From Bacteroides coprosuis DSM 18011 (GTDB taxonomy: Bacteria; Bacteroidota; Bacteroidia; Bacteroidales; Bacteroidaceae): a stretch of DNA of 64,000 nucleotides. A program made the translations under genes and the position numbers. The DNA is taken from the NCBI GenBank assembly GCA_000212915.1, contig CM001167.1:297780-361779 (forward strand), given 5' to 3'. This document shows positions 25,242-51,590 of this stretch, piece after piece (position 1 is the first letter of the stretch; each line of letters opens with the position of its first letter). A model generated the notes under the pieces. That model was not told where the DNA came from and made no database searches. It saw only the letters and a program-made list of their open reading frames with translations.

Positions 25242-25313
25242 TTATTTTGGTACAAACTCCTTAGCAGAATGAAGGGAATAGAAGATTCTAATCAAGTTGC
25301 ATTAACTACATAA

Positions 25314-25364
25314 CACCGACATGAGGATACTTTGACACCGACATGTCATCCTCATGTCGGCGTC
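25314..25364. repeat. Repeated CACCGACATG motif with hairpin
   Basis: CACCGACATG occurs at 25314-25323 and 25336-25345, and a near-complement CATGTCGGCG lies at 25353-25362. The last two form a 12-bp hairpin (GACACCGACATG / CATGTCGGCGTC, loop 7 nt). The stretch GACACCGACATGTCATC (25334-25350) recurs exactly at 49701-49717 beside the second IS copy. Confidence 0.6.
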
Positions 25365-25419
25365 AAAAGAGTTCTATGATTCCTCTTAAAACACTATTTA
25401 AACCTCAATCAGGCACAAA

Positions 25420-25440
25420 AAAAGCCTATCTAAAACAAAT
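25420..25440 (-). terminator. Left half of a terminator split by IS copy 1
   Basis: The arm AAAAGCCTATCTAA (25420-25433) plus loop bases pairs with the arm TTAGACAGGCTTTT at 27206-27219 on the other side of the IS. The odd pair is U·G only on the minus strand, so the intact hairpin terminated the leftward MFS-to-transglutaminase operon. Bases 25433-25440 (AAACAAAT) are the target duplication. Confidence 0.85.
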
Positions 25441-25488
25441 GAGGGCACTGAAAAAGTCTCCGTTTTAGATGGGTACTAACAAAAGAAT

Positions 25489-25526
25489 AATCTGGTAAAA
25501 GAAAATATACTTTCTTTTGCCAGATT
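25489..25526. terminator. Internal hairpin near the left end of IS copy 1
   Basis: A 16-bp stem (AATCTGGTAAAAGAAA / TTTCTTTTGCCAGATT) has one U·G pair on the plus strand and is followed on the plus strand by TTCTTTTAAAA. It lies downstream of the transposase stop and may end its mRNA or stop rightward transcription entering from outside. The same hairpin is at 49835-49872 in copy 2. Confidence 0.65.
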
Positions 25527-25628
25527 TTCTTTTAAAAGCTCACGGATTGTTTTTGGAACACAAAACAGTCTTTTATTTAGGCTATAATAGGTTCTATTTA
25601 CGATAAAAAAGCACTACTCCTTAGTAAA

Positions 25629-27080
25629 TCACATATTCAATTTGAGTATTCGCTTTAAATTCACAACGAAAATAGCCATCGCTCCTTGCATTTGCATATT
25701 TTTAATGCCATAGGAAGAGGCTCTGCCATATCCGTGTACATTTTTCAGTTCACTATTCTTAGCTTCAACTTTATATCTGTGTTTTGACTTCTCTCTAAAG
25801 TAATCTGATTCCTGAAAAGTCATTTGATCTCTGTGCTCATCAGATTTAATGGTTACAGCATAAGTTTTAGACTTTGCCCCAGGCTTATAACAACCATCTT
25901 TAAGAGCACAAGTTTTACATTTTTCAATATCAAAAAGGTATGTATAAGTTTGATTTTTACCACTGTTCTTTTTCCCTTGACGTGCTTTTCTAATAGCTAA
26001 GTGACCAGCTGGGCATACGAACATTCCTGCATCCTTATTGTAGTCAAACTTATCTTCTTGCTTCCTATGACCTTGAGTAATCCCTGGATTCAATTTGGCA
26101 ACAACTTTTATACCTTGTTCATTTGCTAATTTTAAATTTTCCTTTCCTGAATATGCGGTATCACCAATAATTGTGTTGACTTGAATTCCATTTTGCTTGC
26201 TTATCTTTAATAATTCTGGAAGCTGGGGACCATCTCCCTTTTCTGCTGAGGTGATGGTTGCTGCCGTAATAATTCGTTCTTCTGTTATAGCTATATGAGT
26301 TTTGAATCCAAAGAATGAGGAGTCAGAACTTTTATGACCTGTCCGTGCATCAGTATCTTTAGATAACGTATAATGATCTTTTGTGTCTTCAATTGCTTCT
26401 TTTAATAGATTGAGCTTCTCCTTAACCTTGGGCAATGAGCTCAATGCAAGATCTGATCCTATTTCCTTTTCAAGCTTATCACAATAATCAAGTTCACTTG
26501 ATAAATCATTGTTTTCATTCTTTGGGGGTAAACTTCCTTGCTTTACTTGATTTACGGAATAAACGACCTTACGAACTTGTTTAGCTCGTTCTTTAAGAAC
26601 ATCTATTGGTGAGATTGGATTGGAGCGGGAAAGTGTATGGGTAGCGTCTACAATAATGGACTTAGATTGAATAATACCTTTTTCAATAGCTATGGAAACA
26701 GTCTTGCTTATCAATAAATTGAGTAGGTCTGTATCTTTTAAACGAAGCTTCCTAAATTTAGTAAGCGAGCTGGGATTGATAACTTCATCCTCTGGAGTCA
26801 TTTCTAGAAAGTATTTAAAGGACATATCATAACCAGAGCGTTCTACTACATCGACATCAGAGATATTATAGATAGTTTTGAGTAGTAAGTATTTGAACAT
26901 ACGGATGGGACTTTCCGCATTTCTACCATTATTATGGCAATACTTTTCGACTAGCTCATCATATACAAAAGTAAAATCGATTAGCTCATTTATTTTACGA
27001 AGTAAATTGTCTTTAGGAATTACTAAATCGTACAAATCTGAATATGAGCTTAGCTGAAGTTTTTGTTGTTGTACTAACAT
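25629..27080 (-). CDS. IS1182-family transposase (copy 1)
   Basis: This 483-residue DDE transposase has the IS1182 layout: an N-terminal DUF772-type domain (SPIRMFKYLLLKTIYNISD), then the catalytic Asp in SIIVDATH (Asp145), the second Asp in TIIGDTAY (Asp307), and the Glu in YKVEAKNSELKNVHGYGRA (Glu439 or Glu444). A cysteine cluster (CPAGH, CKTC, DGCYKPG) lies between the second Asp and the Glu, as in related transposases. The reading frame is intact and identical to copy 2, so the element is probably active. Translation starts 118 bp inside the right end, after an inward-facing terminator. Confidence 0.93.
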   Translation of the reverse strand: MLVQQQKLQLSSYSDLYDLVIPKDNLLRKINELIDFTFVYDELVEKYCHNNGRNAESPIRMFKYLLLKTIYNISDVDVVERSGYDMSFKYFLEMTPEDEVINPSSLTKFRKLRLKDTDLLNLLISKTVSIAIEKGIIQSKSIIVDATHTLSRSNPISPIDVLKERAKQVRKVVYSVNQVKQGSLPPKNENNDLSSELDYCDKLEKEIGSDLALSSLPKVKEKLNLLKEAIEDTKDHYTLSKDTDARTGHKSSDSSFFGFKTHIAITEERIITAATITSAEKGDGPQLPELLKISKQNGIQVNTIIGDTAYSGKENLKLANEQGIKVVAKLNPGITQGHRKQEDKFDYNKDAGMFVCPAGHLAIRKARQGKKNSGKNQTYTYLFDIEKCKTCALKDGCYKPGAKSKTYAVTIKSDEHRDQMTFQESDYFREKSKHRYKVEAKNSELKNVHGYGRASSYGIKNMQMQGAMAIFVVNLKRILKLNM

Positions 27081-27111
27081 ATAAGTGCTTGAATATTACA
27101 CTTAAAGATAC

Positions 27112-27162
27112 AAAAAAACAGCAGATAACTGGTAATCAAACCAATGTATTTGCTGCTTTTTT
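27112..27162 (-). terminator. Inward-facing terminator at the right end of IS copy 1
   Basis: Read on the minus strand (entering the element toward the transposase), AAAAAAGCAGCAAATA pairs with TATCTGCTGTTTTTTT over 15 of 16 positions (one G·U, one A/C mismatch), with a 19-nt loop and a terminal U-tract. It would stop read-through from the host operon before the transposase start at 27080. The same sequence is at 51458-51508 in copy 2. Confidence 0.7.
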
Positions 27163-27198
27163 AAAGAATTAATTCATAAGGACTTTTTCAGTGCCCTC

Positions 27199-27219
27199 AA
27201 ACAAATTAGACAGGCTTTT
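27199..27219 (-). terminator. Right half of the terminator split by IS copy 1
   Basis: Bases 27199-27206 repeat AAACAAAT, and 27206-27219 (TTAGACAGGCTTTT) is the second arm of the hairpin whose first arm lies at 25420-25433. It begins 25 bp beyond the stop of the transglutaminase-like gene. Confidence 0.85.
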
Positions 27220-27243
27220 ATGCTCATTTATATATTTTAAATT

Positions 27244-29913
27244 TTACAATCCATGTATCGTCTTCATTAATTGGTTTCCTAGTCCGATAGTATAACCTTG
27301 AGATACAAAAACTACTCTATTGAAGGTATCTGCTATAATAAAAATAGGTAATGCCGATTTATTCAACTTCATAGACTCTGCAATATCTCTTTGTACAATT
27401 CCATCAACATCTATACCATATATTATAGTTGAAGGAAGATTAGGGAAATCGTCCTTTTTAAACTTGTCAGCTTTTTGCTGATCTGGAAACAATAAGACCA
27501 TTCCTCTACCCCATTTTTCTAAATCTTCTTTTACCGCAGCAATATCTTTCAATGCATGATTGGTCGGCTCTTGCCCAACGCCAAGTATCCCGACAACAAA
27601 ATATCCTCTACCTGTCGTTTGAAGAATACTCTTCAGCTCCGTTTCCTCTAGTGGTAGATACTTTGATTCAGAGTTAAAGTTTCCTATTACTTGAACTTGT
27701 TCACTATCTTCTCTCATCACTAAATTGACCGTAGTAGTTTTTCCCTCATTCACTGTAAATAAATTCACAGATGAAAGAACTGCACCACTAGCTAAACGAG
27801 TACCTGTCACCAACATATAACTACCAGTATCCAATTTTAAGCCTTTTTCTAGTAAATTGGACCATGTAGCCCCTTCTCCCATATCAGAATCTCCACTATC
27901 AAAATTTAAAAGGTGATATGTTCCATTTTCATATTTAGAAATAGTAAAGTGTGTATAGTATTTAGGGTCACTTAACGTCTTTATTGGTTTGTATTTAGCT
28001 ATAACAGTTCCTTGTGGTGCTTTAGTTTCTTCATCCGCAGAGAAATCTACATCAAATACCTCTCTCGTTATGAGATTTCGATACTGTACTTTATTTGTTA
28101 CTTCATCTTTCCAAGCAGGTATGCCCAAGCTCCTGGCAACAGCTACAAAAAAGATATCTCTTGATAAATTATCTGTTGTCCTAGAAAGCCAAACTCCTTG
28201 AGGAGACATTCTTATTTTTTGAGCATTCAGTTCATTAAAAACAGTAATTTCACGATTGCACCAATTTACTAGCATCAAAGGATTCTTACGCATTTCTACA
28301 GCTTCATCTTCTTCTATTTTTTCCTGAAAGTATCCTTTATAAGCTGTCAGCATCTCATTTTCAACACGAGGATTAAGAATTTCTTTATATGTCTCTAATG
28401 TTAAGTCTTTAGGTAATAAACTATTGTATAAGTGATCTTCTAGTACTTCTAAAGAAATATCTCGTAAATCTTTAGCTGAAAGAACATTTAAAAGTTCTAA
28501 TGCCAAATCACCTTGTTTCTCAACAACTGCTTGAGCTAAGAAAGAAGAAATAATTTCATGATTTCCTCTTGAGCCTATTAGAAATTTTGCAACCTTTTCC
28601 TTATTCAATTGCCACTCATCCGCTTTTTGAGCCGCTTGATCTTTGGTAACAAAAGTACTTACATAAGCTTTACGAATAGCATCTTCTTCAGCCATCCTCT
28701 TATCATTTTGAGCTCTTTGCTCTGGAGTAACCTCGGGTAAATGAGCACTTTCAACTGGAGGAACTATATCTAGTTCTACATTAAAATGATCATCAGCAGA
28801 ATGATTTAAGACTATTTCAACTTCTTGTTCTTCACCAAAAGAGCATTTCGTGAAGCCAAATCGATCTCCTTTTGAAGCCCATACCAGCATATCTCCCTTT
28901 CCTGCTGTCAGTGATGTGTAACCTTCACCATTCGTGAATTTTTGAGCAACCGTATAGAACTCAGCATAATTGTAAACTTTAAACTCTACTTTAGCACCCG
29001 AAACAAATTCTCTACTATCGTCTAATACAAAAACTTTTGCATTGGCTGTAGGGGCATAGTTTTCAATCACATTTATCTCTGTATAGTTTAGAGTTTCCTC
29101 CATAATCTCCTCGGGACCATTGTAGCGACCAAACACTTTTGTATGCATCAACATACCTCTACTTGCAGGAGAATTAAACCAACCTAAATTCAAAACGGGT
29201 TCAGGTTCACAAGCACCTAGGAAATACCATTCCCCATCTGCCCAAGCCTCAACCCATGCATGGTTATCATCGGTATGTGCCCAACGAGGAGTATAAACTT
29301 GTCGAGCAGGAATTCCTACCGAACGTAATGCTGCTACAGCGAAAGTTGACTCCTCTCCACAGCGTCCATAAGCAGTTTTCACAGAGGCCAATGGTGAACT
29401 TGTTCTTGCATCACTGGGTTGGTAAACCACCTTCTCATGACACCAATGATTAACTTCTAAAATAGCATCTTTCATACTAAGGTCTTTAACCCTATCTTTG
29501 AGTTCAGAATAAAAAACATCTCGGGATGTATCTAAGTTTTCATTGTTTACACGAATTGGCAACACGAAATGACGAACTAATTCTTCTGGAACAGATGTAC
29601 CCCAACTCATCTCTTTCTCAGCTTGAAAGGTTAAGCGTACATTTTCTAAAAAATAAGAAGTGGAATAGTCTGTAATATCTGAAGAGGGCATATAAGCATA
29701 CAGAAACATCATGGCTTCTCGTTCCGCTTTAGTCATTTTAAGAAGACGCAAATCATCAAAAAAGTTCCCTTGTTGCATAGAACGTTCTTTCGACTCATAA
29801 TCTTGAGTCAATTGCTGTAGATAAGTCTCATCATTAATAAAGTGTGCCTGACTACATCCCCCTAAAATCAATAAAGTGAATGCAAAGAGACAAAGTTTAA
29901 GTTGTTTAGTCAT
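27244..29913 (-). CDS. Transglutaminase-like lipoprotein with a second, degenerate transglutaminase domain
   Basis: This is an 889-residue lipoprotein (LILGGC, Cys20). Residues 130-250 form a transglutaminase-core domain with the nucleophile in GRCGEES (Cys185), the His in DDNHAW (His218) and an acidic residue in GACEPEP in place of the usual Asp. A beta-sandwich-like region follows. Around residues 570-640 a second transglutaminase-like stretch (SRDIFFVAVARSLGIPAW) mirrors the first (STFAVAALRSVGIPAR) but lacks the cysteine. The last 130 residues resemble a thioredoxin-like fold without active-site cysteines. It is the last gene of the operon with GH20, GH92, GH130 and an MFS transporter. 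Activity may be peptide cleavage or deamidation on glycopeptides; peptide:N-glycanase belongs to the same superfamily, so glycan release is possible but unproven. Confidence 0.82.
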   Translation of the reverse strand: MTKQLKLCLFAFTLLILGGCSQAHFINDETYLQQLTQDYESKERSMQQGNFFDDLRLLKMTKAEREAMMFLYAYMPSSDITDYSTSYFLENVRLTFQAEKEMSWGTSVPEELVRHFVLPIRVNNENLDTSRDVFYSELKDRVKDLSMKDAILEVNHWCHEKVVYQPSDARTSSPLASVKTAYGRCGEESTFAVAALRSVGIPARQVYTPRWAHTDDNHAWVEAWADGEWYFLGACEPEPVLNLGWFNSPASRGMLMHTKVFGRYNGPEEIMEETLNYTEINVIENYAPTANAKVFVLDDSREFVSGAKVEFKVYNYAEFYTVAQKFTNGEGYTSLTAGKGDMLVWASKGDRFGFTKCSFGEEQEVEIVLNHSADDHFNVELDIVPPVESAHLPEVTPEQRAQNDKRMAEEDAIRKAYVSTFVTKDQAAQKADEWQLNKEKVAKFLIGSRGNHEIISSFLAQAVVEKQGDLALELLNVLSAKDLRDISLEVLEDHLYNSLLPKDLTLETYKEILNPRVENEMLTAYKGYFQEKIEEDEAVEMRKNPLMLVNWCNREITVFNELNAQKIRMSPQGVWLSRTTDNLSRDIFFVAVARSLGIPAWKDEVTNKVQYRNLITREVFDVDFSADEETKAPQGTVIAKYKPIKTLSDPKYYTHFTISKYENGTYHLLNFDSGDSDMGEGATWSNLLEKGLKLDTGSYMLVTGTRLASGAVLSSVNLFTVNEGKTTTVNLVMREDSEQVQVIGNFNSESKYLPLEETELKSILQTTGRGYFVVGILGVGQEPTNHALKDIAAVKEDLEKWGRGMVLLFPDQQKADKFKKDDFPNLPSTIIYGIDVDGIVQRDIAESMKLNKSALPIFIIADTFNRVVFVSQGYTIGLGNQLMKTIHGL

Positions 29914-49700: not shown

Positions 49701-49717
49701 GACACCGACATGTCATC
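49701..49717. repeat. Second copy of the GACACCGACATGTCATC repeat
   Basis: This 17-base sequence is identical to 25334-25350. Here it lies 70 bp left of IS copy 2; the other lies 91 bp left of IS copy 1. It is outside both elements. Confidence 0.55.
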
Positions 49718-49759: not shown

Positions 49760-49786
49760 CATAGAAAAAGGCTATCTCGAAGTATT
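49760..49786. terminator. Left half of a terminator split by IS copy 2
   Basis: The arm 49760-49778 (core AAAAAGGCTATCTC) pairs perfectly over 19 bp with 51553-51571 (core GAGATAGCCTTTTT). The 8-bp duplicated GAAGTATT (49779-49786) is exactly the original loop. The intact hairpin was fully symmetrical and could end the leftward PAP2 operon and back up typA. Confidence 0.88.
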
Positions 49787-49834
49787 GAGGGCACTGAAAA
49801 AGTCTCCGTTTTAGATGGGTACTAACAAAAGAAT

Positions 49835-49872
49835 AATCTGGTAAAAGAAAATATACTTTCTTTTGCCAGATT
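49835..49872. terminator. Internal hairpin near the left end of IS copy 2
   Basis: It is the same 16-bp stem as at 25489-25526 in copy 1, downstream of the transposase stop. Confidence 0.65.
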
Positions 49873-49974
49873 TTCTTTTAAAAGCTCACGGATTGTTTTT
49901 GGAACACAAAACAGTCTTTTATTTAGGCTATAATAGGTTCTATTTACGATAAAAAAGCACTACTCCTTAGTAAA

Positions 49975-51426
49975 TCACATATTCAATTTGAGTATTCGCT
50001 TTAAATTCACAACGAAAATAGCCATCGCTCCTTGCATTTGCATATTTTTAATGCCATAGGAAGAGGCTCTGCCATATCCGTGTACATTTTTCAGTTCACT
50101 ATTCTTAGCTTCAACTTTATATCTGTGTTTTGACTTCTCTCTAAAGTAATCTGATTCCTGAAAAGTCATTTGATCTCTGTGCTCATCAGATTTAATGGTT
50201 ACAGCATAAGTTTTAGACTTTGCCCCAGGCTTATAACAACCATCTTTAAGAGCACAAGTTTTACATTTTTCAATATCAAAAAGGTATGTATAAGTTTGAT
50301 TTTTACCACTGTTCTTTTTCCCTTGACGTGCTTTTCTAATAGCTAAGTGACCAGCTGGGCATACGAACATTCCTGCATCCTTATTGTAGTCAAACTTATC
50401 TTCTTGCTTCCTATGACCTTGAGTAATCCCTGGATTCAATTTGGCAACAACTTTTATACCTTGTTCATTTGCTAATTTTAAATTTTCCTTTCCTGAATAT
50501 GCGGTATCACCAATAATTGTGTTGACTTGAATTCCATTTTGCTTGCTTATCTTTAATAATTCTGGAAGCTGGGGACCATCTCCCTTTTCTGCTGAGGTGA
50601 TGGTTGCTGCCGTAATAATTCGTTCTTCTGTTATAGCTATATGAGTTTTGAATCCAAAGAATGAGGAGTCAGAACTTTTATGACCTGTCCGTGCATCAGT
50701 ATCTTTAGATAACGTATAATGATCTTTTGTGTCTTCAATTGCTTCTTTTAATAGATTGAGCTTCTCCTTAACCTTGGGCAATGAGCTCAATGCAAGATCT
50801 GATCCTATTTCCTTTTCAAGCTTATCACAATAATCAAGTTCACTTGATAAATCATTGTTTTCATTCTTTGGGGGTAAACTTCCTTGCTTTACTTGATTTA
50901 CGGAATAAACGACCTTACGAACTTGTTTAGCTCGTTCTTTAAGAACATCTATTGGTGAGATTGGATTGGAGCGGGAAAGTGTATGGGTAGCGTCTACAAT
51001 AATGGACTTAGATTGAATAATACCTTTTTCAATAGCTATGGAAACAGTCTTGCTTATCAATAAATTGAGTAGGTCTGTATCTTTTAAACGAAGCTTCCTA
51101 AATTTAGTAAGCGAGCTGGGATTGATAACTTCATCCTCTGGAGTCATTTCTAGAAAGTATTTAAAGGACATATCATAACCAGAGCGTTCTACTACATCGA
51201 CATCAGAGATATTATAGATAGTTTTGAGTAGTAAGTATTTGAACATACGGATGGGACTTTCCGCATTTCTACCATTATTATGGCAATACTTTTCGACTAG
51301 CTCATCATATACAAAAGTAAAATCGATTAGCTCATTTATTTTACGAAGTAAATTGTCTTTAGGAATTACTAAATCGTACAAATCTGAATATGAGCTTAGC
51401 TGAAGTTTTTGTTGTTGTACTAACAT
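49975..51426 (-). CDS. IS1182-family transposase (copy 2)
   Basis: This 483-residue DDE transposase is identical in sequence to the one at 25629-27080, with Asp145, Asp307 and Glu439/444 as probable catalytic residues. Absence of any protein difference implies very recent transposition or gene conversion between the two copies. Confidence 0.93.
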   Translation of the reverse strand: MLVQQQKLQLSSYSDLYDLVIPKDNLLRKINELIDFTFVYDELVEKYCHNNGRNAESPIRMFKYLLLKTIYNISDVDVVERSGYDMSFKYFLEMTPEDEVINPSSLTKFRKLRLKDTDLLNLLISKTVSIAIEKGIIQSKSIIVDATHTLSRSNPISPIDVLKERAKQVRKVVYSVNQVKQGSLPPKNENNDLSSELDYCDKLEKEIGSDLALSSLPKVKEKLNLLKEAIEDTKDHYTLSKDTDARTGHKSSDSSFFGFKTHIAITEERIITAATITSAEKGDGPQLPELLKISKQNGIQVNTIIGDTAYSGKENLKLANEQGIKVVAKLNPGITQGHRKQEDKFDYNKDAGMFVCPAGHLAIRKARQGKKNSGKNQTYTYLFDIEKCKTCALKDGCYKPGAKSKTYAVTIKSDEHRDQMTFQESDYFREKSKHRYKVEAKNSELKNVHGYGRASSYGIKNMQMQGAMAIFVVNLKRILKLNM

Positions 51427-51457
51427 ATAAGTGCTTGAATATTACACTTAAAGATAC

Positions 51458-51508
51458 AAAAAAACAGCAGATAACTGGTAATCAAACCAATGTATTTGCT
51501 GCTTTTTT
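51458..51508 (-). terminator. Inward-facing terminator at the right end of IS copy 2
   Basis: The same hairpin with a minus-strand U-tract as at 27112-27162 of copy 1. It would stop read-through from the PAP2 operon before the transposase start at 51426. Confidence 0.7.
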
Positions 51509-51544
51509 AAAGAATTAATTCATAAGGACTTTTTCAGTGCCCTC

Positions 51545-51571
51545 GAAGTATTGAGATAGCCTTTTTCTATG
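51545..51571. terminator. Right half of the terminator split by IS copy 2
   Basis: Bases 51545-51552 repeat GAAGTATT, and 51553-51571 is the perfect complement of 49760-49778. It begins 20 bp beyond the PAP2-family stop codon. Confidence 0.88.
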
Positions 51572-51590
51572 CTATATTCTTACTTTAAGT

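Follow-up and report, generated by a model that had tools for sequence, protein, structure and literature searches.

An IS1182-family element of Bacteroides coprosuis that probably specialises in host intrinsic terminators and carries inward-facing terminator-like hairpins at both ends

We describe an insertion sequence of Bacteroides coprosuis DSM 18011 and its relatives, which quite probably form an IS1182-family lineage specialised for host intrinsic terminators: the element splits the terminator loop, tends to face the terminated gene and carries inward-facing terminators of its own. It can probably stand in for the broken host terminator while shielding its own transposase gene from outside transcription, as judged from predicted structures. 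Since insertion into a terminator leaves every protein intact, such sites are plausible targets for a transposon, while loss of the terminator should cause read-through. Terminators carried by the element itself would explain how a genome could come to hold eight copies, including one that follows an rRNA operon, without obvious damage.

The element and its copies

The window (the whole stretch of DNA analysed, 64,000 nt of contig CM001167.1) contains two copies of the element, and the features discussed below are as follows.

25441..27198, minus strand: IS1182-family element, copy 1, 1758 bp; ends and 8-bp duplication AAACAAAT mapped
49787..51544, minus strand: IS1182-family element, copy 2, 1758 bp; ends and duplication GAAGTATT mapped
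25629..27080, minus strand: transposase of copy 1, 483 aa (ORF and family profile)
49975..51426, minus strand: transposase of copy 2 (ORF)
27111..27163, minus strand: inward-facing terminator-like hairpin at the transposase 5' end, copy 1 (fold, terminator scan, covariation)
51457..51509, minus strand: inward-facing terminator-like hairpin of copy 2, identical in sequence to that of copy 1
25489..25526, plus strand: second inward-facing terminator-like hairpin, at the transposase 3' end (fold, terminator scan)
49835..49872, plus strand: transposase 3'-end inward-facing terminator-like hairpin of copy 2, same sequence as 25489-25526
27103..27110, minus strand: TATCTTTA, -7-like promoter box directly after the T-tract (TAnnTT conserved in aligned relatives)
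25413..25440, no strand: left half of the split host terminator with target duplication AAACAAAT, copy 1 (site mapping)
27199..27225, no strand: target duplication with right half of the split host terminator, copy 1 (site mapping)
49763..49786, no strand: left half of the second split host terminator with duplication GAAGTATT, copy 2 (site mapping)
51545..51572, no strand: duplication with right half of the second split host terminator, copy 2 (site mapping)

The terminal inverted repeats GAGGGCACTGAAAAAGTC are present at both ends and flank the single 483-aa ORF; short repeats around one ORF are a feature of the IS1182 family. The transposase scored 367 bits against the IS1182-family profile NF033551 (cut-off 270) and is thus an IS1182-type DDE transposase; its DDE domains are PF05598, PF13751 and PF01609. 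The B. coprosuis genome (2.99 Mb, one contig) contains 8 full copies of the 1758-bp element and 1 fragment, and the transposase frame is broken in 2 of the full copies. Among the mapped loci, a truncated copy of about 410 bp (L018, 6000-6410) retained the shield hairpin with no terminator half in its flank and is probably a rearrangement remnant. In Flavobacterium sp. NK2020 (L041), the end of another copy begins directly after the duplication in the downstream flank, apparently representing two copies in tandem at one target. A repeat, CACCGACATGWCATC, was also found at 25313-25363 (palindromic there) and at 49703-49717; the genome has 22 copies of it, and for 3 of the 8 IS copies one is found at about 70-140 bp from the transposase 3' end, far above chance. 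The repeat may be a REP-like one of gene ends.

Inward-facing hairpins and the putative promoter

The first-pass annotation had noticed, just inside the right end, a terminator-like hairpin directed toward the transposase, and both this hairpin and its recurrence at 51458-51508, identical in sequence and inside the second copy, were borne out. When the minus strand of 27106-27168 was folded, a 22-pair hairpin with the 3' end TTTTTTTG was obtained at 27111-27163, between the right inverted repeat and the transposase start and pointing toward the transposase. Its folding energy was -21.1 kcal/mol compared with a shuffle mean of -7.6 (z = -6.05), and none of 200 shuffles equalled it. The stable stem-loop is followed by a run of 7 T, as in an intrinsic terminator, and the terminator scorer was also positive; a simple consensus terminator scan of the sequence did not have this hairpin among its matches, and an Rfam search gave no family above threshold near it. 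Host-IS junction transcripts (70 nt of host and the first 121 nt of the element) were predicted to form the hairpin in the 7 counted own-genome copies, and the predicted junction fold of the eighth (L016), in which one stem base is changed, still shows it. In an alignment of 28 divergent elements, 97.1% of the cells were paired and double-sided changes occurred at 8 of 10 pairs, while the covariation score was 0.647 versus 0.210 for shuffled alignments and at most 0.159 for slid controls. These results support a conserved inward-facing terminator-like structure at the 5' end. Two distant IS1182 members with mapped ends (L101 and L103, 43-52% identity; n = 2 only) had no strong 5' terminator, and their sites were without A/T tracts.

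A second inward-facing hairpin, absent from the first-pass annotation, lies at the other end of the element (25489-25526; -19.5 kcal/mol, z = -6.5) and is followed by TTCTTTT on the inward strand. In a separate terminator scan, all 31 distinct elements had an inward terminator at each end, while mid-element controls had one in 5 of 31. A terminator score of at least 10 was reached by 100% of real ends, 11% of shuffled 5' ends and 30% of shuffled 3' ends, the median score being 22.2 at the 3' end and 19.2 at the 5' end. The inbound terminator was stronger than the outbound one in 25 elements versus 5 at the 5' end (p = 0.0003) and in 29 versus 0 at the 3' end (p = 4e-9). With an inward terminator at both ends, host traffic would be covered in either insertion orientation.

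The 5' hairpin might have other functions. Read on the opposite strand it is a weaker terminator too, and since outward termination would be possible in 24 of the 31 distinct elements, it could mainly end an outward-reading antisense RNA that arises within the transposase gene and keeps the transposase repressed, as in IS10 or IS200. This is improbable, because the inward direction is found in all 31 elements and is the stronger one in 25 against 5, and the same inward bias (29:0) occurs at the 3' end, where no such antisense RNA is expected. In the mapped members it lies no more than about 90 bp from the element tip, a position that would also suit a part of the transposition machinery, namely a transposase-binding or strand-processing hairpin instead of a terminator. 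We consider this still more improbable: IS1182 transposases are DDE enzymes, and whereas the greater part of the inverted repeat is invariant, the hairpin varies in sequence by compensatory changes, which argues that the shape and the T-tract are kept, not the letters.

A TAnnTT box (TATCTTTA in the window element) is located directly 3' of the T-tract, about 30 nt before the ATG, is conserved in the aligned relatives and resembles the Bacteroidota -7 box, TAnnTTTG, which goes with a -33 TTTG 19-21 nt farther upstream. TTTG occurs 19-20 nt upstream of the box in 7 of 40 aligned elements and is clear only in some Bacteroidales relatives, where it lies inside the hairpin loop or the 3' arm; the window element is without a -33 TTTG at the right spacing. 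The transposase is probably transcribed from a promoter with this box as its -7 element, in which case the element's own mRNA would start after the hairpin and lack it.

Just before the transposase ATG, a 7-pair hairpin (AAGTGTAATATTCAAGCACTT) was observed at 27080-27108, which also folds in the own-genome junction transcripts. The greater part of its 5' arm would be missing from a transcript begun at the putative promoter, while read-through RNA would carry the whole hairpin, an arrangement comparable to IS10/IS50-type translational blocks. RNAalifold across the relatives gave no consensus pairs in this region, and a universal second hairpin blocking translation before the ATG was therefore dropped.

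Target sites and orientation

In all 8 own-genome copies, the flanks with the duplication counted once rebuild an intrinsic terminator, of which the 8-9 bp duplication is the loop; the host stems are unlike in sequence among the 8 copies. The empty site of copy 2 (including the half at 51545..51572) folds at -37.6 kcal/mol. For two Bacteroides fragilis copies, the empty site in a sister genome carries the intact terminator, showing that insertion is a simple loop duplication without deletion; the orthologous empty sites of the window copies in same-genus genomes were too diverged for base-level comparison. Some IS1182-family members prefer palindromic targets (Siguier, cited in PMC5678879), and such targets were found here for 8 of 8 own copies and, among 66 non-redundant insertion sites (the 8 own-genome copies and mapped relatives), for 46. 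The latter had a centred stem of at least 12 pairs and -12 kcal/mol or lower, found at 98 of 20,000 random window positions (0.5%); this stricter threshold was used instead of a looser one (at least 7 pairs), which 26% of random positions reach.

When the sites were aligned on the duplication, A was found at -10 to -12 (0.89-0.92) and T at +10 to +12 (0.92-0.97). At 20 sites the stem was weak or shifted, with under 6 of the 8 inner positions paired; about 11 of these had no clear stem and came mostly from one Flavobacterium genome, often from inside ORFs. Across the 20 sites the values were still 0.92 for the T-tract and 0.80 for the A-tract, and 14 of them matched 5 or 6 of the 6 tract positions, compared with 2% of random positions nearby. 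Since the tracts are largely kept where the stem is weak, the transposase seems to respond to fixed-spacing A/T tracts as well as to the palindrome. The tract spacing at hairpin-less sites makes a question about the IS1182 family testable, namely whether the DNA sequence or an extruded hairpin is read by the transposase.

Insertion had been expected to be nearly cost-free, which does not hold always, because 9-12 of the 66 insertions, all in relatives, lie inside ORFs. Two distant IS1182-family matches with TGTTGCA-type ends (L137 and L138) were also located at a palindrome centre. A second IS1182 type (L130, L183-L186), of which one genome (G201) holds six copies, has an A-run in the flank ahead of its 5' end in most of the copies compared; its tip GAAGGTGTCTAAAAAGGCACCTTCTTC can itself form a hairpin, possibly another way of replacing the terminator.

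Both window copies meet a minus-strand host gene that reads into the transposase 5' end, as the first-pass annotation had stated, with stops at 27244 and 51591, 46-47 bp outside that end. Its further claim of a split host operon failed, since the element sits between transcription units, in the terminator after the operon. The transposase 5' end faces the terminated gene in 8 of 8 own-genome copies: in 7 it faces a gene stop 45-64 bp away, and in the eighth the 3' end of the 5S rRNA, 26 bp away, so that this insertion broke the terminator of the rRNA operon. Of the sites outside long ORFs at which exactly one side has an inward gene stop within a limit of 80-150 bp, 25 have the 5' end toward the stop and 5 the 3' end (p = 0.0003; stable for thresholds of 60-250 bp), a test chosen after two cruder ones, by nearest stop (30:20) and by co-directional neighbours (13:5), were non-significant. 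The relatives alone gave 17:5 (p = 0.017), and the orientation counts are not fully independent because relatives share ancestry. Far-side T-tracts exceeded near-side A-tracts at 37 sites versus 16 (p = 0.005). Many relatives sit between converging genes, so both ends meet traffic, and at 13 of the 57 sites outside long ORFs neither flank contains an inward gene stop in its first 60 bp. The expectation that the right end always faces the terminated gene thus held as a bias and not as a strict rule, which is ruled out by five opposite cases (L032, L049, L050, L060 and L096). Opposite insertions as frequent as the expected ones, which would have spoken against the first-pass reading, were not found (8 of 8 in the own genome, 25:5 overall). 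From the mapped sites, the orientation bias is real and strong, but not absolute.

The bias could have arisen after insertion, if copies with the 3' end facing a strong gene were lost. It is indeed strongest in the own genome, the rRNA operon included, but the inward terminator at the 3' end scores no worse than that at the 5' end, so the penalty for a wrong-way insertion should be small, and we regard such selection as rather unlikely. Alternatively, the 5' hairpin may protect only the transposase, with any host benefit incidental and the orientation a by-product of T-tract reading by the transposase. The far-side T-tract is the most constant target feature and is kept better than the A-tract at weak-stem sites, and with the strong inward 3' terminator either orientation would be covered; nothing decisive stands against this possibility, which is compatible with most of the main explanation and to which we give a little less than an even chance.

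Proposed mechanism and comparison with known systems

In the mechanism we favour, that of an element specialised for terminators, the transposase would open the terminator loop at a fixed register (about 9 bp separate the 8-9 bp loop from the A-tract on one side and from the T-tract on the other), duplicating the loop as seen at the mapped sites, and would land preferentially with its 5' end toward the incoming transcript. Insertion would pull the host hairpin apart, while the conserved terminator-like structure just inside each element end would face the incoming traffic. RNA polymerase is predicted to stop within about 90 nt of the element edge, and read-through from the host and activation of the transposase should both be avoided; the host gene would keep its 3' end and the transposase would not be read from outside. 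The transposase would be started from the putative promoter just past the T-tract. A broader proposal is made tentatively: the transposase lineage may read terminators as a polar DNA signal, that is fixed-spacing A/T tracts for which the hairpin is not required, orient itself with the transcript and carry paired inward terminators, so that one host terminator is swapped for two carried by the element and host and element are both transcriptionally insulated. If a short polar DNA signal is indeed read, this mode of choosing targets would be new in kind and might offer a tool to mark gene ends.

The shield resembles that of IS200, in which transcription from outside is kept off the transposase by a terminator close inside the end and a second structure blocks translation; the IS200 enzyme differs in belonging to the Y1 class. 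To our knowledge, IS200 is known neither to target terminators nor to have a matching terminator at its other end. IS1397 and ISKpn1 are REP-targeting elements that insert into intergenic palindromes, and ISPpu9, another REP-targeting element, also inserts into intergenic palindromes (PMC8450116). The targets of these three are repeated palindromes of conserved sequence, unlike the terminators of unrelated sequence used here. Group IIC (bacterial class C) introns are likewise mobile and use intrinsic terminators as a low-cost landing site, but they are RNA retroelements inserted just after the terminator without splitting the loop (PMC8919778); the terminator survives, and no replacement is needed.

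The closest systems are IS1272 and TnSha1 of Staphylococcus, IS1182-family elements that insert into hairpins, several of which were confirmed as terminators by RNA-seq (PMC4923244, PMC5678879). They share with the present element the transposase family, the hairpin targets and the low sequence conservation of the stems. IS1272 deletes the stem-loop partly or wholly, leaves the target unduplicated and inserts either way round (PMC4923244, PMC5678879), whereas here the 8-9 bp loop is duplicated, the stem halves are retained, the orientation is biased and A/T tracts stand at a fixed distance. The present element consequently lies outside the IR-replacing subgroup of IS1272 (no duplication, hairpin deleted), the sister-genome empty sites being intact. 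The IS1272 literature concluded that structure is read and not sequence, while the insertion sites studied here suggest a response to A/T tracts.

A search for this type of element in Bacteroidota found nothing in the literature covered, which left most subscription papers and ISfinder outside, and in that literature the loop duplication, the fixed-spacing signal, the conserved two-ended shield and their combination are not described. Terminator targeting (IS1272/TnSha1) and terminator shields (IS200) are known separately, while an element that unites duplication of the loop, a biased orientation, a signal of fixed spacing and a shield at both ends looks like a new combination.
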